64,000 nt of DNA from Halocaridina rubra. Lineage: Eukaryota > Arthropoda > Malacostraca > Decapoda > Atyidae. The notes under the pieces were generated by a model that saw only the letters and a program-made list of their open reading frames with translations, did not search any database and was not told where the DNA came from. Shown in pieces: positions 3,561 through 33,176 of the stretch. The stretch covers positions 51,001 to 115,000 of the forward strand of contig JAXCGZ010022653.1 in NCBI GenBank assembly GCA_037179515.1, read 5' to 3'. The translations under genes and the position numbers were made by a program. Within the stretch, counting starts at the first letter, position 1; each line of letters starts with the position of its first letter.

Positions 3561-4244
3561 CAAAACTTAGGTAAAATAAAGCGAGGAAGCTCTGGGAAAA
3601 TACAGTAGCGATAGTCAAGCACGACCCCGGAATCTATGCTTTACTATACCCAAATACTTCGACACTAGAGTATTTATGACTTGTTAGGTAGAGATACTAG
3701 AAATTAGCATGAGTGATGGGATTATACGTATCCGGGTACTTGAGCAGAGTACATTGAAACTTGGATACTTGTGAGAGTACGTTGAATATTGATACTTGAA
3801 TAAAGAGACTTGAAAATATAAAGCACTCCAAAAAATTTAACTGATGATTCTTGAAAAAATCTAACGAGTCATTCCATACTGATTCATGAGATTAATTAAG
3901 TTAACAAAGTTAACGAGTCTTGGAAGAATGTATAGAGAACTACCGTTACCCTAAGTTCAAATTAGTGTTTACTTTTGCGGCTACCACGCAAGATAATGAG
4001 TATACACTAATGACCAACGATCATCTCACACTTGTTATGGTTATTACGATTTTTACTTCTTATAACAAAAGGCACAAACAATAATTACACACGCAAACAA
4101 TTTCTTTCACAAAAATAAAAACTCAAGAATACACTGTTCACTTTCCTGAAATCATAACACAATTGTTATAAAAAAACGGGAAAAAGGGAGAAGTTAATGT
4201 AATCTACTTTACTTTGAGCAAGGATCCTGGCAAGGTCGCCAATA
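3561..4244 (-). other. Leader of the LTR element, no gene
   Basis: This is AT-rich and non-coding. It lies between the LTR and gag of the minus-strand retrotransposon. Degenerate short repeats (TTGGATACTTG, GAGTACGTTGA) occur at 3720-3800. At 4228-4243 the minus strand reads TTGGCGACCTTGCCAGG just after the LTR end, where a tRNA primer-binding site is expected. Confidence 0.45.
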
Positions 4245-4970
4245 TATTACACCCAGGTGTGACTGGTAAATACCAAATTCAAGTTTTTCATGCCCGAGAC
4301 CAGGACTAATATATGACCATGTGGCAATGGATAAATGACTCGAAATTGTGAAGGGCATGGAAATAAGGTGAAAAATTTATAACAATTGTAATATCAATTT
4401 CACCTAATACAAAAGGAATTATAATCTGAGATTTTACAAACCTACAGATTAACAAAACAGACATAAATACATAACACTAATACATTCCTACAGATTAACT
4501 AAAACAGACCTAAACACTTTAATAATTAATATAAACCTACAGATAAAAAAAAACAGACAAAAACCAACATAGAATTAATAATGATAATTACTATAACTTT
4601 TAACTGACATCAAAAGTGAAAGGGAACCTGGGAGGAGAGCAATACACTAATACACAATAAAGAATTTACAATGCAAAAAACAATGAGTTCCAGGTGGAAG
4701 AAATGAAAAGGCCGGTCCGGGGAATATACTCCTGGAATGTCGTGATGATTGCTGGACTAGAACTGTACTCTTTTGCCGGTCTTCCTAATCGGGTATTTAA
4801 AGCCTTGGACAGTGGGGAGGTAAAGGGGCTAAGACGGTCAGCTGAAGTAGGGTCGAGGGTAAGGCCAGAAACTTCATTATGATTGGCTGTTTGAGGTGAA
4901 ATGAAGGCTGATTGGTTGAGCAGTGGAATATGAATTAAAAGGGTTAACAAACTTGTTTGGGGTTGTAACA
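4245..4970 (-). repeat. Probable 5' LTR
   Basis: On the minus strand the segment begins TGTTACAACC and ends GGGTGTAATA, an imperfect inverted pair of the kind that closes LTRs, about 726 bp apart. The putative primer-binding site follows directly. No second LTR is in the window, so the boundaries rest on the termini and on position alone. Confidence 0.5.
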
Positions 4971-5222
4971 CTCGGTCTTTTAACAAAGATAGTCATAATT
5001 TTGGTGGCTATATCCTTGTTTTATGGTCAACAAATCAATGAAAAGAGTAATAATTAACAATTCAACTCAAGTGATTATAATCAAAGAGCCACAAAACTAA
5101 AACAGTGTCAAAGTGACCTCTGGTGCCCAAACTTGAGCCCGAATATGACTCTGGGTTATCAATTAGATGCAGTGATGTTCTATATAATTAGGTTGAGGAG
5201 AACAGAGATGGCCACGAACTCC
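4971..5222. other. Flank between LTR element and hAT, no gene
   Basis: No coding signal is seen. The last 30 bases (5201-5230), joined to 14452-14453 across the hAT insertion, match 19300-19332 (see the direct-repeat entries). Confidence 0.5.
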
Positions 5223-5230
5223 CCCTAGAG
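5201..5230 (+). repeat. Direct repeat A (split by hAT, continues at 14452)
   Basis: The segment reads AACAGAGATGGCCACGAACT and continues to CTAGAG, then CC at 14452-14453. It matches 19300-19332 with about two differences. With the hAT removed, this copy lies about 100 bp upstream of the pseudogene start at 14560. Confidence 0.7.
5223..5230. repeat. Left target-site duplication of hAT (CCCTAGAG)
   Basis: CCCTAGAG directly precedes the left terminal repeat and occurs again at 14444-14451 directly after the right terminus. An 8-bp target duplication is the hallmark of hAT transposition. Confidence 0.9.
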
Positions 5231-5914
5231 CAGTGATTCTTAACCAGGGATGCTCACACCCCTAGGGGGTGCAAGACCGGTTCCTAAGGGGTGCGAGGAT
5301 GCCTATGAATAATTAAAGCTAAATATATTTTTATATACGTATTATAGTTTTAGTGAAAAAAAAACTTTTTGCTTCAGCAGTATTCTGAGATAGTGATAAA
5401 CCTAAAGTTCTAAACCTAATTTCCTAATGAAGTGGCAAAGTTGCAGCAGACTCGAGTACAGAGTACACATATGTGATTTGGATGGAAGAGGAAGGGACGC
5501 GTATAGGACACGTAGGTGACACAGAGAGAGGGAGGTTATCATCACGTCTCAGACCACACCACCCACCCGCACCATCAACATGCAGTCTTTTGCTTGAATG
5601 AGTTATGGTTTCCCTCTTTTAATAACCTTTTCTTATTGATACATATACAGTAGGGTGGAAAATTGGTTGTGTATTATTTCTGATTTTGGTTTCTTCACAT
5701 TTATTTAAATGGCCGATGGGCTGTTTATGTAACATAGATCATCACTGTAGCAGTGTAGACATTACAATTCTTTCATAGAATGTATTGTGATGGCTACAAA
5801 TGTACTGATTAAAACCACATATTTCAGTTTCTCCATCACATATATTGGTGACAATTCATAAAAAGAAGCAGACATCTATTCATGTATTATATATAATATA
5901 TGTGTATGTGTATA

Positions 5915-6712
<798 letters not shown>

Positions 6713-7355
6713 GTGATTACCTAATTGATTACCTAATTGTGTTTACGGGAAAGAGCCCAAAGCTCGTATCTTCCCGTCTCCTGATCGGTTCCATTTTATA
6801 CTTAGTGATACTTATCATACCTGTCCTTAAAACTATGGATTGAGATAGCATTAACTACCTCCTCGCTTAGCGAATTCAAATTATCAACTACTCTTACACT
6901 GAAAAAGTATTTCCTTACATCCTGCGAAGAAGTTTTCTTACGAAGCTTCAAAATATGACCTCTAGTTCTAGAGCCAGCCATATCAAAATATCGATCCCTA
7001 TCCACTCTATCATAACCATGAAGGAATTTAAAGACTGTCACCATATCCCCCCTCACTCTTCTAGCTTCGAGTGATGGTAAGTCTAATTCCCTCAGCCTCT
7101 TATCATAACTGAGATTGCGTACTTCTGGCACCAGTTTCGTGGCATGTCTTTGAACTTTTTCAAGCTTAGCTATGTGCTTTTTCAAGTGCGGATTCCAAAA
7201 GGGGGCTGCATATTCGAGTTTTGGCCTCACATAGTTTACATAAATATTTCTGAACATTTCCTTGTCCATGTGCCTGAAGGCTACCCTTACATTTGATAAG
7301 AATGCATATGCTGCCCTTACTATGCCATTTATATGTATTTCTGGAGACAAATCTG
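6713..7355 (-). mobile_element. 5'-truncated 3' end of CR1-like LINE
   Basis: The minus strand encodes the last 180 or so residues of the CR1-like ORF2, from SPEIHINGIVRAAYAF to [10 protein letters not shown], then the same short 3' UTR as the full copy next door. It ends in a direct repeat of about 14 bp (AATTAGGTAATCAC type). A few substitutions separate it from the neighbour. The element stops abruptly at 7355, where TATG repeats begin. Confidence 0.85.
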
Positions 7356-7486
7356 TATGTATGTATGTATGCCTGGATGCATGTATGTATGTATGTGATT
7401 ACCTAATTGTGATTACCTAATTGTGTTTACTGGAAAGAGCCCAAAGCTCGTATCTTCCCGTCTCCTGATCGGTTCCATTTTTAGAC

Positions 7487-10309
7487 TTAGTGATACTTAT
7501 CATACCTGTCCTTAAAACTATGGATTGAGGTAGCATTAACTACCTCCTCGCTTAGCCAATTCCAATTATCAACTACTCTTACACTGAAAAAGTATTTCCT
7601 TACATCCTGCAAACAGGTTTTCTTCCGAAGCTTCAAACTATGACCTCTAGTTCTAGAGCCAGCCATATCGAAATATCGATCCCTATCCACTCTATCATAA
7701 CCATGAAGGAATTTAAAGACTGTCACCATATCCCCCCTTACTCTTCTAGCTTCGAGTGATGGCAAGTCTAATTCCCTCAGCCTCTCATCATAACCGAGAT
7801 TGCGTATTTCTGGCACCAGTTTCGTGGCATGTCTTTGAACTTTTTCAAGCTTAGCTATGTGCTTTTTCAAGTGCGGATTCCAAAAGGGGGCTGCATATTC
7901 GAGTTTTGGCCTCACATAGGTTACATAAACATTTCTGAACATTTCCTTGTCCATGTGCCTGAAGGCTACCCTTACATTTGATAAGAATGCATATGCTGCC
8001 CTTACTACGCCATTTATATGTATTTCTGGAGACAAATCTGCCAATATGTTTACTCCTAGATCTCTCTCATTTTCTGTCTCCTGAAGTTGTACTCCAGCCA
8101 CCGAGTAGTCAAGCTTGGGCCTTCTTGCACTTGTACCCATTCTCATTACCTTACATTTTGAGGTATTGAATTTCATTAGCCACTTTTCTGACCACTCATG
8201 CAGATTATTTAGATCCTCCTGAAGTTCTCTACCATTGTTCTCGTTTTTTACTTTCTTCACAATCTTTGCATCATCTGCAAACATATTCATGAATGAATTT
8301 ACAGACTCTGGTAGGTCATTTACATATACAAGGAACAAAAGTGGCCCTAAAACTGAACCCTGTGGAACTCCACTACTAACTCTTCTCCATTCAGACACTG
8401 AGTGTCTTACTCTAACCCTCTGTTCCCTTCCTTCTAAGTAAGTTTTTATCCATTCCAAGACATTTCCACCTATTCTAGCCATTGATTGCAGCTTCCTAAT
8501 AAGTCTCCCATGTGGAACAGTGTCAAACGCTTTCTGGAAGTCTAGGAATATGCAATCTGCCCAGCCCTCTCTTTCCTGTAAGATTTGGCTTACCTCATCA
8601 TAAAATTCTAATAAGTTTGTTACTGTTGATCTTCCTTCTCTGAAGCCATGTTGCCTCACTGACAAAAAGTTGAAGGATTCCAAGTGAAGAGAGATATGTT
8701 TCCTTAGTAGTTTCTCCATAAGTTTGCAAACTATGCTGGTCAAGGAAACTGGTCTATAGTTCAGAGCCGTATCCCTCCTTCCCTTTTTGAAGATAGGTAT
8801 CACATTTGCTTGTTTCCAGCATCTTGGAATCTCCCCCGACTCCAATGACTCCTTAAATATGATACTTAGTGCCACTGATATTGTGTTTGCGCATTTTTTA
8901 AGCACATGAGGGGATATGTCATCAGGACCTGTAGCTTTATGAACATCTAAATTCATCAGCGCTTTGCATACCTCTGTGGCTGTAAGGTTGATGTTCTCTA
9001 ATACCGGCCCTTGAGCTTCTATCACTGCAATCTGAGGGGGTGGGGTATTTTCTACTGTAAATACTGACTGAAACTCCTTGTTCAATTCTTTGCAGATCTC
9101 TTCGTCCGTCTCAGTGATGCTTCCATCCGCTCTCTTTAGCCTTAAAACCTGTTCTTTTACCTTCAGTTTTCCTCTGATAAAGCTGTGGAAAAGCTTGGGA
9201 TTTTCTTTAGCCTTCCTGGTGATGTCCCTCTCATAATCTTTCTCTGCCTCTCTCCTTTTACTTAGGTAGTCATTTCTTGCTCTTTTGTAGGTTTGCCAGG
9301 CATTTATGTTTTTTCTCCTCCTATACCTTTTCCAGCATTTGTCTCTCCACTCCTTAGCTCTTTTACACCCATTATCGAACCATTTCTCTCTGGCATGAAT
9401 TACACCTACTTTGGTGACAGGTATGCAGCAATCTACTATCCTCCCATATTTCTCACAAAAGATGTCATACATTTCTTGTACAGATTTGTTGTAAAATAAG
9501 GTTCTCCAGTCAATAACTGCAAAAAGCTCATTCATTTTGATGTAATCTCCTTTCTGATAGTTCCTCCTCATGTCCTCAGTGCCTCTACTCTCAGGAAGAA
9601 TGTCTTCAATGATATACTCCATCAACAACACACAGTGGTCACTCTTTCCAATTGGTGGTTCATACTCAATATTTTCAATATCCAACACATTATCTGTGAA
9701 CACCAGATCAAGTAGTGATGGCTCATCCCCACCCCTGGCTCTTGTTGGTTCCATTACATGTTGGTGTAGGATATTCCCTTGTACGCAATCTAGGAATCTT
9801 GCCCCAAAGGAGTCCTCACCACTGTGTGGGTCAAGATTTATCCAATCTATCTCTTTATGATTAAAGTCTCCCATAATCAAAATCCTACATTTTTTCTCCC
9901 GCGCCATGTTAACAACTGAGTTTATGACTTCAATTGTACCTATATGACTTTCCTCATAAATTTCAAGCCTATTTTGGTTCCTTGGTGGGTTGTATACAAC
10001 AGTTATTATAATGCTCTCTGACCCAGTATTTATGCGAGCAACAAGAAATTCCCTGAACTCACTTTCTATAGCCAAGTTTATCTCTTCAACTTGAATCCTC
10101 TCACTTATGAGCAGTGCTATCCCTCCACCAGTCCTCTCAGATCTTTCGACCCTTAGTATTCTGAAGCCCTTAGGAAAAACTGTGACACTGTTTATGTCCT
10201 CACTCAACTTAGTCTCTGTAATTGCTACTATATCTGCCTTACTGTTGTGAATCCTATCTTTTAATTCTACTGCCTTACCAGCTAATCCATCAGCATTTGT
10301 GTATAACAA
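7487..10309 (-). CDS. CR1-like LINE ORF2: endonuclease and reverse transcriptase
   Basis: The frame has 940 residues. An apurinic/apyrimidinic-type endonuclease covers about 1-230: YTNADGL at 3-9, ITETK at 30-34, GDFNH at 147-151 and SDH at 223-225. A basic linker at about 310-370 follows. The reverse transcriptase covers about 430-760: NYRPVSLTS at 517-525, LDFQKAFD at 589-596, GVPQGSVLGP at 647-656 and FADD at 677-680. A C-terminal domain ends in DRYDKYH. The endonuclease nicks DNA and the RT primes on the nick. The start is uncertain: 10309 is a TTG, and the frame stays open upstream into ORF1, in a different phase. All catalytic motifs are present. Confidence 0.92.
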   Translation of the reverse strand: MLYTNADGLAGKAVELKDRIHNSKADIVAITETKLSEDINSVTVFPKGFRILRVERSERTGGGIALLISERIQVEEINLAIESEFREFLVARINTGSESIIITVVYNPPRNQNRLEIYEESHIGTIEVINSVVNMAREKKCRILIMGDFNHKEIDWINLDPHSGEDSFGARFLDCVQGNILHQHVMEPTRARGGDEPSLLDLVFTDNVLDIENIEYEPPIGKSDHCVLLMEYIIEDILPESRGTEDMRRNYQKGDYIKMNELFAVIDWRTLFYNKSVQEMYDIFCEKYGRIVDCCIPVTKVGVIHAREKWFDNGCKRAKEWRDKCWKRYRRRKNINAWQTYKRARNDYLSKRREAEKDYERDITRKAKENPKLFHSFIRGKLKVKEQVLRLKRADGSITETDEEICKELNKEFQSVFTVENTPPPQIAVIEAQGPVLENINLTATEVCKALMNLDVHKATGPDDISPHVLKKCANTISVALSIIFKESLESGEIPRCWKQANVIPIFKKGRRDTALNYRPVSLTSIVCKLMEKLLRKHISLHLESFNFLSVRQHGFREGRSTVTNLLEFYDEVSQILQEREGWADCIFLDFQKAFDTVPHGRLIRKLQSMARIGGNVLEWIKTYLEGREQRVRVRHSVSEWRRVSSGVPQGSVLGPLLFLVYVNDLPESVNSFMNMFADDAKIVKKVKNENNGRELQEDLNNLHEWSEKWLMKFNTSKCKVMRMGTSARRPKLDYSVAGVQLQETENERDLGVNILADLSPEIHINGVVRAAYAFLSNVRVAFRHMDKEMFRNVYVTYVRPKLEYAAPFWNPHLKKHIAKLEKVQRHATKLVPEIRNLGYDERLRELDLPSLEARRVRGDMVTVFKFLHGYDRVDRDRYFDMAGSRTRGHSLKLRKKTCLQDVRKYFFSVRVVDNWNWLSEEVVNATSIHSFKDRYDKYH

Positions 10310-10311
10310 TC

Positions 10312-11391
10312 TTAATGAGGCCCCATCCCCTGATCTTCTGTCATTATCTTCTTTATCTCCCCTTGGTCTGGAAGTATTCCGTAACGAAAAGTTTTCTTCT
10401 CTTCTTCATTTCTTTCATCATTTAACCTTCTTGCCTCTTGCAACAAGTTTTTGATCTTTCCCATCTCTTCCTGTGTTCTGTATCGTCTAATGAACACTTC
10501 TTTGCATTCTTGAAGGTCTTTTAGACTTTTTTTTCTCAACAATATTTCCCTACATGTCTCCCCTCTCTCAAAGGTTACTTTTGTTGGTCTCGGCTTTCCT
10601 TCCCTCGAATATTTACCTAGTTGGTGTATGTTTACAATATCCTCAGGACCACATACTACTCCAAGCTTTCTTATCAGTTCTACAACGTTAGCTTTATTTT
10701 CTTCAAGTCTCCCCTGCCATGTTGGCTCCTGGGATTCACTTATGCCTGAGATTACCACTGTCTTCTCCTTATCAAGTGCCTGTCTGATGAGTGGGTTTGC
10801 CCTTTCCATCACAATGTCTTTCATTTTTTCGATTACTGTCTCTTTATAGTCAACTGTTTGTATGTTTTCCAGTGCCACCACCTTTACAGCCTCTTTTACT
10901 GCCACATTCCCCTTTAGTGCATCAGCAAAGGACGTTTTCATGGCATCATTTTCCATATTCAGCTCCTGGAACTCTTTTCTGAACTGTTCAATGTTTTCCT
11001 TAATCTGAACATTCCAAGCAGCAATCTCGTCTCTCTCAGAAGATAGCAGTGAACTAACATCTAATTCCTTTAGGTTGTCATTTAGCTGTTTGTTTTTATC
11101 TTCTTGATTAGAAATTCTAGATTCTAGTTGACTCTTTTCCCCTTCCAGCTTCTTTATTCTTTTTTCTAGTTCCTTTCTCTCCTGCCCTTGTGCTTTATTT
11201 GCTTCCTCCAAAGATCTTATTTGTTCTCTGAGTGTTTCATTCTCTTTAATTTCTCCATCCATATTCCGAATTTTATCATCAAGGCTTGTAACCATTTCCT
11301 CTAACTTCTTGATTCTCTGTTTAAGTCCTCTGATGACTACCCCTTCTCCCGACCCATGGGTGGGAGAGGTTTGGGACAGAGATGGCTTCAT
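10312..11391 (-). CDS. CR1-like LINE ORF1 protein (coiled coil, RRM-like)
   Basis: The protein has 359 residues. A long coiled coil occupies about 20-160 (LKQRIKKLEEMVTSLDDKI and similar heptads). The C-terminal half has VVISGISESQEP, HQLGKYS, RPTKVTFERG and a basic segment with EVFIRRYRTQEEM, the pattern of ORF1 RNA-binding (RRM-like) domains in L1/CR1/L2 elements. Such proteins trimerise and coat the element RNA. The ATG at 11391 is the first good start. The stop (TAA) overlaps the open frame of ORF2, which is read in the minus-one phase. No zinc knuckle or PHD domain is seen. Confidence 0.85.
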   Translation of the reverse strand: MKPSLSQTSPTHGSGEGVVIRGLKQRIKKLEEMVTSLDDKIRNMDGEIKENETLREQIRSLEEANKAQGQERKELEKRIKKLEGEKSQLESRISNQEDKNKQLNDNLKELDVSSLLSSERDEIAAWNVQIKENIEQFRKEFQELNMENDAMKTSFADALKGNVAVKEAVKVVALENIQTVDYKETVIEKMKDIVMERANPLIRQALDKEKTVVISGISESQEPTWQGRLEENKANVVELIRKLGVVCGPEDIVNIHQLGKYSREGKPRPTKVTFERGETCREILLRKKSLKDLQECKEVFIRRYRTQEEMGKIKNLLQEARRLNDERNEEEKKTFRYGILPDQGEIKKIMTEDQGMGPH

Positions 11392-11470
11392 TTTTATGTT
11401 CTCCCTCTCACAGAATATAGAAAGAAGACGAGAAAGAGGAAAAAAGAAAAGAAAAAGAAAAGAGAAAAAC

Positions 11471-14182
<2,712 letters not shown>

Positions 14183-14443
14183 GTTGCTGTGCAGTGCAGG
14201 CAAAATAATGTAATTTTATTTTTATTAATATGTACTCTGGATTTTTGTTATAAAAAAAATGTAAGCTATATGAATGAAGATTAAATAAAAATAAAACGTG
14301 GTTGTGTTATTAATACACATCACATCAACTTTGTATTTTTAGCATTTTTTTTTTTGTATTTCAGCAATCGGGGAGGGAGGGGTGCGAGAACTGACTGCTG
14401 ATTTGAAAGGAGTGCATATACCGAAAAAGGTTTAGAACCACTG

Positions 14444-14451
14444 CCCTAGAG
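14444..14451. repeat. Right target-site duplication of hAT (CCCTAGAG)
   Basis: This is an exact copy of 5223-5230, directly after the right terminal repeat. It proves that 5231-14443 inserted as a unit. Confidence 0.9.
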
Positions 14452-14559
14452 CCAGGAGAAGGTTGTGGATCTGTGAAAGTAAAGAAAAGTAAATGTCATT
14501 CATAATGTTTTATTTAACATTTCAGAATAAGTCTATAGAATCCTAATCAGCCATTAATA

Positions 14560-17500
14560 ATGGAATCCATTCAACTTTCAAGTCAAGTCACGTCAAGTCC
14601 TGAAGCTGTTATGTATGACAAGGGAAGGTGTGCCATGTGTCAAGGGGCATCACAAGAGAAATTGGTCAGCACATCCAATGGCTGTAAACGAGTACGGGAG
14701 GCTAGCAAAATATGAAATGACCTTGTAGCAAAACACATTAAACTACTTCCAACCAATAGCGACTTTTTCTACCATGTTTCAAATAAGTCTTACCAGAAGT
14801 ACACCCATGCAATCTTGTTAAAAAACTCAAAGAAAGAAACCCATCACAATCCTCACATGAAACTGGCAGTCCAGATGGGAGTTTGACTCGTTCTCACTTA
14901 GCTGTGCATTCACCTCCAAATCCTGTGGATTCCAAAACTGTGACCTTTTCAAACTGTACTATATGTGGCAATAATCCATACAAATGCGACTTCTTGAAGT
15001 TCTGTATTTGTAAGTCAAATCGTGTCACCTCATTCTTAAAAGAAGCAAACTTCTTCCAGGATGATATCTTTTGTGACCTCCAGGATGAGCATGCGGTTTT
15101 TGGAGCTGATTTGTACTACCTCAAAAATTGCATGACAAAATACCTCCACAAATTTGAGTGTGCTCAAAGTTCAACTCGTGAACCACAAGAGACGAACCCC
15201 AAGCAACATGCATGGAGTGATATTGTGTCTGAGTTAGAAGTGGGGCTAAAAATTGGCAATGGTTATGAACTCTCTTCAATTAGAGACCGAATGAATAGAG
15301 TTGTAGATGATGAGCATCAATTTCGAAATAGAGATGTGAATGTGTTTCTGGTGAGACAGTTTGGAAGTACTATTGATTTTACATATCCTGATGAGGTTCG
15401 CAATTCTTTCATGGTTTACAGTGTGCCACGTAACAGAGCAGAGGTTTTGGCAGAGTGTGTTTGATGTATTGACCCCATACAAGTGTGTGCCAGTATGATG
15501 AGACAAAGTCTTAACATTTATGACTTTGATTTAGATGATAGATTTGGGGATGCTGAAGATCTGAAACAGGTATACTGCAGTATGAAAATACCTGAACCAA
15601 TTGTTCGGTTTTTTGGATATCTCTACAATTTCAACCCTTTGACATACCCCAAAGCAGCTGAAGCTGCAATGATGAAAGTAGACAATGCAGATGAAGATAA
15701 TGATGAAGAATTAGATGATGCAGATGAATCTGAGAATGATGAAAATCAAGAAAATAAAACTTGTGAACAAACCGCTGGTGGTTCCCAATCTACTCAACGA
15801 TGCAGAAAGATCCAAGCTCTGTTCCAGACCATGTACTATGTACATCATCATGACAAAAGGCAAACACCAATGCATATAATGAATGCTGAATCAGCTCACA
15901 GTCTTGGAAGTGTAGGAAAAATCCTTACCACCATCTTGAACTGCCAAGAGCTCGCATTAATTTATGCAGAATTATTGTGATATCAATATGACATTGCTGC
16001 CTACACTACACAGCAGAACGAGCAGACTGTGGCATTACCAGCCCATTTTGATCCTGGAGAATTCACGTCAGCAGATGTTGATAACTGGGATCACGAAAGA
16101 GCTACTGTATCTGAGCATGATGCAAGTGTGTAATTTATCAGGACAAGCCCAGTTCCAAGCTACTTAAGCCAAAACAATTTGATACTGTGGTTGAGCATGG
16201 CCCACAAATGCTTAAGGAAACCCTACCCTGACAGATACTTCAAGAGTCTGCAGCACCAGTGAAACGACCGGACCTTCCAAGTTCATTTAAGGGCAACGAG
16301 GAGCGCTACAAATCTGATATCAGAACCAATATCTTAAGTGAGCTGAAGAAAAGCACTCTTACTGGAAATGCAATAGTGAGTAGAAGATCCTTGGAGGAGT
16401 TCCATATGTCGTCATCCAATCTAGTCAGTGATCTGAAGAATTTTGTAGAGGCAAGATTTTCCTCAAATTAGAACTTCCAATTCTGGTGTCAGCTTCTGGC
16501 ACGGCATGAAATAACTCTTGATCTGTTGTGAGCTGACCGAGAAAGATTATGGCAGTTGCATCTTGATGCTATGCAACGTGCACTTTGCAATTTTGCTGCT
16601 TTGGATTCCACTAATTATCTTCGATTGGGTATAGTGTATCTAGAGGATGCAAGAAACCTACCTGAAACAGCCCTACAGTTTTTAAAAACTTCTCTGAGGG
16701 ACATTTTTTCTCAATTAAGGACAGACCAGGGTGTTTCTCAGCAGTTGGTGGTGATCAGAAGCTTGAGCAGACGATCGACCTCTCATCAAAGTGCAGTGAT
16801 GGTGTTATTGGACATGCAAAACAGAAGCAATATATCCCTCAATGGAATTTAATCTACCATGAAATGATGGCTGTGAAAAACTTGCACCGAGAATATGCTG
16901 GTGTCCATGAGAGCAAGTCTGAGGCATGGCACCATTATGAATCATCACTGGCAACCACAAACAGACAAGAAGGACACGTCCAAAATATGATGAAGTTTAT
17001 TGAAGATAGAGGGTCACCATTCTCAGCAGAGCTGACAAAGCAAGTGATGACAAAAAAAAAATCAAAGAGGATGTCCAGAATGCATCTGAAAAAGGCAAGA
17101 GGAAATACCAGGCTTTCACAGTGAAAGGATATTCAACAAAACTGTCCAACTGAGAGACACCATTCTCAGAGGGAACCTCAAAACCATGATCTCCATCAAA
17201 GCTAAACCCAAGAAAACAGTCAAGAAAGTGATCAGAGCCATGAATATGATTGAATAATCAATTGAAGTAGCTAGAGATAGAGGTCTCGATATAGACGTTC
17301 TTCTGACATATGATGTTGTACCTTCTCCCATGCTGTTTGGTAATAATGGGCTCATGACCAAACCATATAAGAGCCAACTCATTCGTGAATTAGAGGAAAC
17401 CCTCAAGCCAGATGAGTATTGCTACCAGCATAAAGCTACCTCAACCTTCCTTATTGATGTCATGGCAACAATCCACAGAGTGCCTCTATCTGGACTCACA

Positions 17501-18687
17501 AGTTTCTTTGATCTGCTTTCAAAGCTTGCAGAAATGAATGACATGTATCATCACTATAGCAGATGTGATTACATATTTGTCATTTACAGTGACAACCCAT
17601 CAATGAAAGATACAGAGAGGTTGCGGAGATGCAGCACAACTCCAGTAGTACTTAGCTCAGTTGAGCTCTCAGCACTAATTTCCAAGGACATGACATCATT
17701 CTGGCCATCAAGTCAAAACAAGTGCAGTTGGAAAAACTAATCTATGGATACTTGCGTGAAAGGCCTTCAGATATGCATGGAGAGCTGACCATTCTCAGCC
17801 AGCTATGCATGGACAGTAATGAATGGCAGTGCATAAAGGTCCACAATGGAATAGAAGACAGATTGCAGCACCTGCAGTCCCAAGTTGAAGAGGTAGATCT
17901 CCATATACCCATGCACGTGCTAGATTGTCTCTGAGCAGGTTACAAAACATGTGTTGTTTTATCCAACGATACTGGTGTAATAGTTGCCCTGTTATTTCAA
18001 TTGACTACCTGTCTTCAAGAGGGTTTTCAGGAACTGTGGGTAAGGGCGGGGGAGAGGCAACACTACTCGTTTTGTCCATCTTCACATTTTGCATGTAAGA
18101 TTCGGCCCTCGTATGTGCACAGCACTTCCAGCACCAGACAGTCTCTCAGGATGTGACATCACCAGTAAAATAGGCACAAAGAAAGCAGCTCTCAAGCCAA
18201 ACCTGTGGCTCACTTGCAATGATTTGGCGCAACAGCTCCACTAGTTTCTTCATTGATCCAGCAGGCAGAAGAGTACTTGATGCATGTCATAGATGCTGGA
18301 AACAAGTCCAGCAATTTTGTCCAACTTTGAGCACATCAGTTTCACTTTTCAAAGTCAGCTTCACACCAGAATCTGCCACCGACAACTCAAGGTTTGACAC
18401 CTCTCATTTACCGTGCATTTTTCAGTGCATATACCACCAAGCATGTCCTTGACAGGTAGTTCCACATAGGAACAGCAGATATAGATCAACTAGATTATGA
18501 TTTTGCACATGGGAATGCTAATCTTCTTCCTTCGACATCTTGGAGATCTTTGGAGCCATGTTGGAGTGTTGTGTGTCATTGCGGCAAATGTGCTCACATA
18601 ACTTGTCCTTGTCTTGTATCGATGGTAAAATGCAGCGTGTTCTGCAAGTGTCAGAAGACAGATAACTGTAGCAATCCTCAAAACTGA
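14560..18687 (+). pseudogene. Decayed large multidomain gene: CxxC motif, FEN/PIN-like region, CXC-like tail
   Basis: I recognise this as a repeated invertebrate protein family without a named function. Pieces in order: MESIQLSSQV start; CAMCQ at 14629; CTICG with CICK near 14960-15010; TPMHIMNAESAHSLGS near 15870; LPAHFDPGEF and DNWDHERATVSE at 16035-16120; WQLHLDAMQ near 16550; TFLIDVMATI at about 17443; FVIYSDNPSMKDTERLRR at 17572-17628; EEVDLHIPMHVLDC at about 17887; VVLSNDTGVIVALL at 17950-17991; LSGCDITSKIGTKKAAL at 18143-18193; a cysteine-rich end (CHCGKCAHITCPC, CKCQ) to the stop at 18685. The acidic motifs in this order resemble FEN1/XPG nucleases (inference). Many frameshifts and stops make it non-functional. 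About 1,370 codons originally. Confidence 0.7.
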
Positions 18688-19299
18688 TCTGATAAACAAT
18701 AAAAACCATAATGAAGAGATTTATCAGATATATCAATTGAAAATTGTTCTTACAATCAGAAACTAAGCTTTAAACTGAGAAGGATTCAGACAGGGAAAAG
18801 AAAAGGATATCGAGGCCCAGGAGAAAGAGAAGAAAAATAGAAATAGATCCCCACTATGGAGCTGGAGAGCACTAAATAACTCATATCTTGGCTAAGGGAA
18901 GACACTGCTGAGCTTGGGAAGGGGCTCACTCCTGGTAAAAACAAACCCCAAGTCTATGTTGCCCTGCTCCCGAGGATGCCCCAGGGGTGAGGTTTCTTGT
19001 AACCAGTAAAGGCCCAAAACTCCAGAATTACAGCCATGAAAAGAGTACCAGATGACTGGATGCATTCTTATTTATGTGTGACCATACTATAGGCTAATGC
19101 ATGTGCATATTTCATCAGTTATGCACATTATATCAGTGGAAATACAAGGAGAAACTTTAACTTGCGTTGCCCGCACAGTTTGGCGGCTATTTTGAAAAGC
19201 GCCCTATATAGCAAAAGTTAGGGAAAGTCAGAGCGATCATCCAAATTTTTCTGGAAGCCCTTGATGTGTAGAACAAGAAAATCATGGTTGATTGAGTAA
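18688..19299. other. Downstream region of the pseudogene, no gene
   Basis: Non-coding. It lies between the pseudogene stop and direct repeat B. GC content is moderate at 18870-19010. No motif is recognised. Confidence 0.5.
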
Positions 19300-19332
19300 A
19301 ACAGAGATGACCACGAACTCCCCACTAGAGCC
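19300..19332 (+). repeat. Direct repeat B
   Basis: It begins AACAGAGATGACCACGAACT and continues to CTAGAGCC. It is about 94 percent identical to repeat A (5201-5230 plus 14452-14453). The two copies are on either side of the 14560-18687 pseudogene. Confidence 0.7.
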
Positions 19333-20097
19333 TAGAATAGACTATTTTATAATGCTAGAGACACCAAGTCTAGCCATCGTGATTTGGTATATTAAATTGG
19401 ATGTTAAATTCCTTAATCTTTAAGAAGGAATGGATAATCTTTTAGACGTTGTCACCCTCTCTTAAAATAAATAGCAGATTCATTATAAATCCGTTTGAAT
19501 GAGAACTGTCCCACTAATCTTTGGGAATACTAAATCAATATATGACAACCATATAAGGGAATTTTCTTCTGAAACCTATTGGTCAATTTATTTCCTCAAG
19601 AACGCTTCTCCCATAAATTCGATGCATTTTTTTTTCATACTAATTCATAATTAGATTAAAAGTGTGTTTTCAAATATTTCTTCCATAACTGCACTTAATA
19701 GATTATATAAAACAATACTTATGCTCTTTAGTACTGATATTTGAATTTCTCATAAAACTGTGCTAACAAACGAGCTTTCTTTTTCAAGTGGTCACATGAG
19801 AATAATCCTAGATTTATTTTTTGCTGCAGTTAACTATAGTAAATTTAATTCAGTGGTGACAGTATACTATCCATTTGACACTTGTTTATTTACTAATGAA
19901 AGACAGTTAAATAACATATGCTTATTTAAACCAATTCATAAATCAAATTTTTTTTATTAATGAAATTATTTATGTAATATGTATATCCACTAAGAGTAGG
20001 TGACCAGATTAGGTCACGAAATTGATAAGCACTTTAAATATTTTTCACAGTGTTTCTTTTTTGGGCCTTTTCCCACCGTATATCCACTATATACAAA
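19333..20097. other. AT-rich non-coding DNA
   Basis: No gene, RNA or repeat family recognised. Confidence 0.5.
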
Positions 20098-30792: not shown

Positions 30793-31516
<724 letters not shown>

Positions 31517-31535
31517 TCACAGGATCTCTGTCCCC

Positions 31536-32578
31536 TTACTTGGATATCCATGGTAATTCTAGAGCTAATACATGCCCCACGACTCCGACCGCCAGGGAGG
31601 AGTGCTTTTATTAGATGCAAACCAATCAGGCTTCGGTCCGCCACACGGTGCTGATTCTGAATAACTTTGAGCAGAGAGCACGGTCACAGCGCCGGCTCCC
31701 GTTCTTTCGAGTTTCTGCCTTATCATGCTGTGGATTGTAGGCCAAGCGCCTACTATGGCTGTTATGGGTGACGGAGAATCAGGGTTCGATTCCGGAGAGG
31801 GAGCCTGAGAAACAGCTACCACATCCAAGGAAGGCAGCAGGCACGCAAATTACCCAATCCCGGCTCGGGGAGGTAGTGACGAAAAATAACAATGCGGGAC
31901 TCATCCGAGTCTACGTAATTGGAATGAGCAAACTTTAAATCCTATAGCGACAACCCATTGGAGGGCAAGTCTGGTGCCAACAGCCGCGGTAATTCCAGCT
32001 CCAATAGCATATATTAAAGTTGTTGCGGTTAAAAAGCTCGTAGTTCGAGTTCCGTTCCGGACTGGCCGGGGAAGTCACCGCCTGGTGCCTCCCCACCATC
32101 CTCCGAACAGGTCTTTTTCGAAGCCCCGCCGGTTCTACGCCGGGGTGCTCTTTACCGAGTGTCTCGTGCGGCCGGCAAGTTTACCTTGAATAAATAAGAG
32201 TGCTCAAGGCAGGCTACTCTTCAAACCTATGCCCGAAAGATAACTGCATGGAATAATGAAAGATGATCTCGGTCTCATTTCTGATTGGCTCTGGGGACCG
32301 AGATAATGATTAGAAGAGACTGTCGGGGGCATCCGTACTACAACGCGAGAGGTGAAATTCTATGACCGTCGTAGGACGAACAACAGCGAAAGCATTTGCC
32401 AAGAATGTCTTCATTGATCAAGAACGAAAGTTAGAGGATCGAAGGCGATCAGATACCGCCCTAGTTCTAACCCTAAACGATGCTGACTAGCAATCCGCCG
32501 TCGTTATTCCCATGACGTGGCGGGCCGCTCCTGGGAAACCTCTAGTCTTTGAGTTCCGGGGGTAGTATGGTTGCAAAA

Positions 32579-32611
<33 letters not shown>

Positions 32612-33073
32612 TCAGGAGTGGAGCCTGCGGCTTAAATTGACTCAACACGGGAAACCTCACCAGGCCCAGACACTAGCAGGATTGACAGATTAAGAGCTCT
32701 TTCTCGATTTGGTGGGTGGTGGTGCATGGCCGTTCTTATTTGGTGGAGTGATTTGTCTGGTTAATTCCGGTAATGAACGAGACTCTGGCCTACTACATAG
32801 TCGACGTGGTGGCATGGCCACGGTTGAAACTATCTTCTTAGAGGGATGAGCAGCAAGTGCAGCTGCAGGAGAGTGAGCAATAACAGGTCTGTGATGCCCT
32901 TAGATGTTCTGGGCCATACGCGCGCTACACTGAAAGGGTTAGCGGGTCTTCCTTCTCCGAGAGGAGTGGGAAATCGCTGCAAAACCTTTCATGATTGGGA
33001 TTGGGGCTTGCAACTGTTCCCCATGAACGAGGAATTCCCAGTAAGCGCAAGTCATCAGCTTGCGTTGATTAAG
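31536..33073 (+). rRNA. 18S (small-subunit) rRNA fragment, truncated, probably a pseudogene
   Basis: Universal 18S blocks appear in order: GGTAATTCTAGAGCTAATAC (31551), GCCGCGGTAATTCCAGCTCC (31984), AGAGGTGAAATTCT (32348), GATCAGATACCGCCCTAGTT (32448), AAACTTAAAGGAATTGACGG (32581), GAGCAATAACAGGTCTGTGA (32875), CGCGCTACACTGA (32921) and GAACGAGGAATTCCCAGTAA (33025). About 150 nt of the 5' end and about 150 nt of the 3' end (the TACACACCGCCC region) are missing. Many normally invariant bases are changed. There is no ITS, 5.8S or 28S. I read it as a stray decayed copy, not a working gene. The order and spacing are arthropod-like. Confidence 0.85.
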
Positions 33074-33176
33074 CCAAGGATGTCTTCATTGATAGGTTAG
33101 TTTTACTCAAATCATTCCAGGTTTGGATGTGGAGCTTGGCCGCGAAAGCATGTGTCAAGAATGCTGCATTGATCAA
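33074..33176 (+). repeat. Repeated pieces of the 18S central region
   Basis: The 18S block near 32397 (GCCAAGAATGTCTTCATTGA) recurs as CCAAGGATGTCTTCATTGAT at 33074 and in altered form (GTCAAGAATGCTGCATTGAT) near 33151, with preceding GCGAAAGCAT in the last case. These are extra partial copies after the truncated 18S end, a sign of rearrangement. Confidence 0.55.

Follow-up and report, generated by a model that had tools for sequence, protein, structure and literature searches.

What did the broken reading frames at 14560-18687 of this Halocaridina rubra DNA once encode, and did their product serve the host or a mobile element? The frames lie in a 64,000-nucleotide stretch (C19422:51001-115000 of the 1.18-Gb assembly; hereafter the window, whose positions are used throughout), and a sequence-only reading had seen in them an uncharacterised family with a FEN/PIN-like nuclease signature and a CXC-like tail, possibly a mobile element enzyme or an anti-transposon factor. 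Our analysis identifies the locus, with a probability of about 0.8, as a dead copy of an Academ-type DNA transposon, most likely of the AcademX lineage. It belongs to a many-copy, repeat-bounded and target-duplicating element, with one gene that carries two CxxC...H...C modules, an RNase H-like part, a nuclease and a cysteine-rich tail.

A broken transposase-nuclease gene

The gene was split by eye into nine segments, with eight frame changes and ten premature stops (Table 1). Its read-through translation, with X at the breaks, matched 15 proteins, six of them at E = 0 and eight of them 1562-1603 residues long. One relative, P0001, which also supplies the residue numbering for our alignment of 34 relatives (A4), is 60% identical to the read-through over the best local stretch and aligns in pieces over 14560-18678 (nine matches, eight at E <= 3.7e-10 and one short match at 0.34). 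All five peptides quoted in the sequence-only reading lie on the plus strand in the order given there, spread over the frames, and relatives at E = 0 rule out chance; likewise, its bounds of 14560 and 18687 fit the gene, whereas the mobile element is larger.

Among the proteins scanned, the family is covered by no Pfam or NCBIfam model. In six relatives and ten pieces of the window no Pfam model reached its cut-off, and in a scan of 29 relatives DUF6589 matched three at E <= 0.01, with P0020 slightly under the cut-off, while every other Pfam entry was confined to a single member. The cysteines of the tail are kept in 28-31 of the 34 aligned relatives, and one of the 29 scanned (P0041, 29.5 bits versus 23.5) passes the cut-off of the CXC domain Tesmin/TSO1 (PF03638), which partly bears out its description as CXC-like. 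The large protein of this family occurs in animals as distant as fish and, in one record, a sea anemone; pattern scans of viral, phage and prokaryotic collections (two to six short peptides each) found no relative, nor did a tblastn search of phages with P0012.

Two predicted catalytic parts

The sequence-only reading had suggested predicting the fold of a relative, and that fold matches nucleases of the FEN/EXO1/XPG type. By alignment position, the 34 diverse relatives share seven nuclease acids, whose conservation is about as strict as that of the aspartates and glutamate (DDE) of the transposase part; together, fold and acids support the assignment of this part to the FEN/XPG type. Its likeness to FEN1, XPG, EXO1 and GEN1 (and XRN2) comprises the predicted fold, the seven acids and the GCD...GTKKA region. 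In contrast to those enzymes, the nuclease is here fused behind a transposase-like part, and it lies beyond the reach of PDB sequence searches, which returned nothing convincing.

The window copy retains five of the seven acids, having lost one Asp to Val (17579-17581) and another to Gly (17974-17976). The Gly, in the DTD motif, had already been noted as a mark of decay. In the comparison of 'FVIYSDNP' with FVFDGKPP of FEN1, the position aligned to the Asp is V, the D that the reading had in view aligns elsewhere, and so two acids are lost rather than one. An apparent Arg at D1400 was rejected as the product of a wrong-frame match, the P0001 alignment giving Asp.

Upstream of the nuclease the protein seems to be RNase H-like, with the DNWDHE block holding its first catalytic motif; the earlier reading had named the nuclease, the CxxC part and the tail, but not this transposase part. 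It has a conserved D, D and E, and weak fold matches to Hermes of the hAT group, ISCth4 and RAG1 suggest a helical insertion before the Glu. The likeness to these enzymes lies in the RNase H-like core and this insertion, with no sequence similarity shown, and the 3-4-bp target duplications described below differ from the 8 bp of hAT elements. At 16321/16331 the window copy lacks P0001 residues 577-783 (about 207 residues), and with them the second transposase Asp. Frame breaks, a second lost acid and this internal deletion add to the Gly as signs of decay, and the window copy is dead.

Copies, ends and target duplications

A 160-residue piece (17258-17740) gave 112 matches in the genome from 138 candidates, with identities from 86% (self excluded) down to 28%; some copies yield more than one match, and the figure therefore stands for at least 112 matching stretches. 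We fetched 20 loci from the genome matches, completed one of them (L027) with further sequence and took additional elements from contigs C2238 and C16227. In most fetched copies homology breaks sharply about 710-730 bp upstream of the start codon, and on the 3' side it mostly ends about 650-665 bp past the stop in copies that reach their end. The least damaged copies measure 6.0-6.1 kb, and their inverted repeats reach about 163 bp. Lengths and repeats were determined for L009 (6123 bp, repeats of 163/165 bp), L012 (5069 bp, 162/163 bp), L014 (5786 bp, aligned over bases 8-163) and L018 (6043 bp, aligned over bases 7-60 only). Searching the genome with the repeat end gave 40 scored matches from 122 candidates.

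Both ends could be placed in ten elements (L009, L012, L014, L018, L020, L026, L027, those on C2238 and C16227, and the window copy). Six of these are flanked by a perfect target duplication, of 3 bp in five cases and 4 bp in one, compared with a perfect 3- or 4-bp duplication in one of 90 mismatched end pairs; of the six, L014 is embedded in an AT repeat, and for L018 and C2238 the ends were placed by eye. No perfect duplication flanks the window copy (ATC/GAC), C16227 (CAG/TAG), L020 or L026; the ends of L020 are divergent, and the 5' end of L026 may come from a different insertion. Judged by eye, the flanks of the six duplicated elements do not accommodate a duplication of 9-10 bp. The element is mobile, and a mobile element enzyme is supported by its target duplications and copy number, both proposed as checks in the sequence-only reading, and by its terminal inverted repeats.

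Part of the terminal repeat recurs, in 3'-end orientation, inside the 5' region of 12 of the 20 fetched copies, at about -160 from the start codon, and of the window copy (Table 1), and may be a second binding site for the protein. A 41-bp direct repeat around the gene, considered as a long target duplication, proved to be the 3' terminal repeat plus this partial copy in the 5' region.

Decay across the family

The longest gene-strand open frame among the 20 fetched loci measures 625 residues. The window copy and nine of the other 19 fetched copies (ten sequences in all) differ from L026, itself one of the fetched set, by about 6-12%, and these substitutions show no excess at the third codon position, which indicates copies without sign of selection since insertion. 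The seven nuclease acids are retained across the 20 copies, in order, in 20/20 (D1167), 17/20 (D1208), 13/18, 14/18, 11/17, 14/17 and 16/16 cases, and the transposase acids in 10/17 (D496), 16/19 (D675) and 17/20 (E929). An intact copy may exist elsewhere in the genome, since for one match outside the fetched loci (contig C19627) an open frame of 2774 residues is listed, with an internal stop.

These results bear on whether the locus could instead represent a host gene family, or an anti-transposon factor, spread by ordinary duplication. The presence of a large protein in distant animals would be in keeping with a host gene, but the gene is enclosed by terminal inverted repeats and target duplications, the fetched loci hold no gene-strand open frame over 625 residues and the third-position excess is absent. 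On the repeats, duplications and decay we reject such a role, leaving it a very small probability. A 'hypothetical protein' that lacked both an explanation and a Pfam model becomes a transposon whose ends and target duplication are known and whose nuclease has structural support, and animal gene models of such make-up are better handled as transposon genes than as host genes.

Relation to AcademX

PMC10045372, the one source in which our literature searches turned up a description of AcademX, attributes this lineage of Academ DNA transposons to Kojima 2020. According to it, AcademX makes duplications of 3 or 4 bp and AcademH of 9 or 10, a difference that seems related to the encoded helicase and nuclease. 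By printed description, our element shares with AcademX the 3-4-bp duplications, the additional nuclease beside a transposase and the terminal inverted repeats, while the longer AcademH duplication is not seen (3-4 bp in six of ten). Outside this comparison lie the tail, described as CXC-like, and the repeats, about 163 bp long and, in the second family below, about 500 bp. No helicase model appeared among the Pfam matches of the 29 relatives, a separate helicase gene in the element not having been sought. We file the element as a probable AcademX member, in which a single protein joins transposase and FEN1/XPG nuclease, an architecture probably known as AcademX. In print, the nuclease of AcademX is likewise called XPG.

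The lack of a covering domain model, with DUF6589 matching three of the 29 relatives, and a comparison made by description leave some room for a separate, unnamed DNA transposon superfamily that gained its FEN/XPG nuclease independently and merely looks like AcademX. We consider this unlikely, as a nuclease and 3-4-bp duplications are the very features printed for AcademX (PMC10045372) and 5565 bp is the mean length printed for curated bivalve Academ elements (PMC10294476).

A second family and the possible role of the nuclease

The same genome holds a second, P0017-like family (L030, L031, L033 and L034), with the longer inverted repeats measured in L030 and L031. Two further copies of this family, L029 and L032, 90.7% identical over 2900 columns, share the loss of P0017 residues 513-1049, that is, the transposase core, and retain the nuclease sequence; in the same way, two fish protein models (P0014 and P0015) lack most of the transposase part but keep the nuclease. 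The core-lacking copies are possibly non-autonomous forms. Such copies and models could also point to a nuclease that is a captured passenger or regulator with no part in excision, which would be compatible with the rest of the AcademX assignment. This seems improbable to us, since the strict conservation of the seven acids, close to that of the DDE acids, argues for a needed activity.

For this element we infer cut-and-paste transposition through DDE chemistry, in which the nuclease would cut or trim the strand left by the transposase. The zinc and CXC modules might bind the repeat ends, the DDE part would cut the 3' ends and join them to the target, and the nuclease part could cut the ends of the element on the other (5') strand, or remove flaps or hairpins arising from excision or integration. 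Such a division of labour would resemble that of TnsB and TnsA in Tn7, where a transposase works beside a second, unrelated nuclease; TnsA, however, is a restriction-enzyme-type nuclease, and the two Tn7 proteins are separate and bacterial. More tentatively, the strands may be split within one chain, the transposase taking the 3' ends and the nuclease the 5' ends or hairpin opening, thereby setting the 3-4-bp duplication and forming a eukaryotic counterpart of TnsB/TnsA. The role of a flap-type nuclease within a transposase becomes a directly testable question. Other transposon lineages with added nucleases are described in PMC9587614.

Boundaries of the window copy and later insertions

The element starts 3,981 bases before the window, where a 346-bp piece (C19422:47020-47365) matches L009 element bases 1-346, and ends at 19339. 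Element base 342 resumes at 4970, a 5-bp overlap with the outside piece. An insertion of about 8.6 kb separates the two; its ends (L035 from about 466 and window positions about 4243-4969) match each other, by eye, like the long terminal repeats of a retroelement. A terminal repeat search confined to the window found nothing above shuffles, because the 5' end lies outside it.

The second insertion is of hAT type, the hAT/ZBED name resting on our reading of its open frames. Its 8-bp duplication (5223-5230 and 14444-14451) adjoins similar inverted 15-bp ends, either pattern alone being not rare, and element homology continues across the junction. Both insertions split the element, which is therefore older than either. 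Within the hAT-type element lies an open frame of 972 residues (7487-10405, minus strand), labelled by eye as resembling a long interspersed nuclear element.

Table 1. Features of the transposon copy and its gene in the window
Feature	Position	Strand	Remarks
5' untranslated part of element, from about element base 342	4970..5230	+	93.8% identity to L009 5' end, continuous across junction; last 8 bases duplicated by hAT-type insertion
Partial terminal-repeat copy	5193-5230 + 14452-14453		3'-end orientation
hAT-type transposon in 5' untranslated region, not part of element (about 9.2 kb)	5231..14443	+	15-bp inverted ends, exact 8-bp duplication
Rest of element to 3' end	14452..19339	+	3' boundary common to other copies
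Broken transposase-nuclease gene	14560..18687	+	read-through relatives, P0001 alignment
First CxxC of CxxC...H...C module	14629..14640	+	C19, C22 each 28/34, 6 gaps
CxxC of second module	14955..14966	+	C126, C129 each 31/34, 3 gaps
DNWDHE block, first transposase Asp (P0001 D496)	16080..16097	+	34/34 in A4
Internal deletion junction (P0001 577-783, with second Asp D675 and H704)	16321..16331	+	P0001 alignment
DQKLE block with transposase Glu (P0001 E929)	16753..16767	+	34/34 in A4
Nuclease acid 1 (P0001 D1167), kept	17456..17458	+	
Nuclease acid 2 (P0001 D1208), V in window copy	17579..17581	+	D in 34/34 relatives
Nuclease acids 3 and 4 (P0001 E1312, D1314), kept	17890..17898	+	
Nuclease acids 5 and 6 (P0001 D1338, kept; D1340, G)	17968..17976	+	G at 17974-17976
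Nuclease acid 7 (P0001 D1400), GCD motif, kept	18155..18157	+	P0001 match, frame 2
Cysteine-rich CXC-like tail	18570..18678	+	alignment, Pfam scan, P0001 match
3' terminal inverted repeat	19175..19339	+	165 bp length from L009; last 74 bp aligned in window

Farther along the window, at 31417-33117 on the plus strand, lies a match to the complete eukaryotic small-subunit ribosomal RNA model (1167.5 bits), close to long simple repeats. No other Rfam match at gathering score is listed for the window, and we read this one as an orphan copy or an assembly feature.
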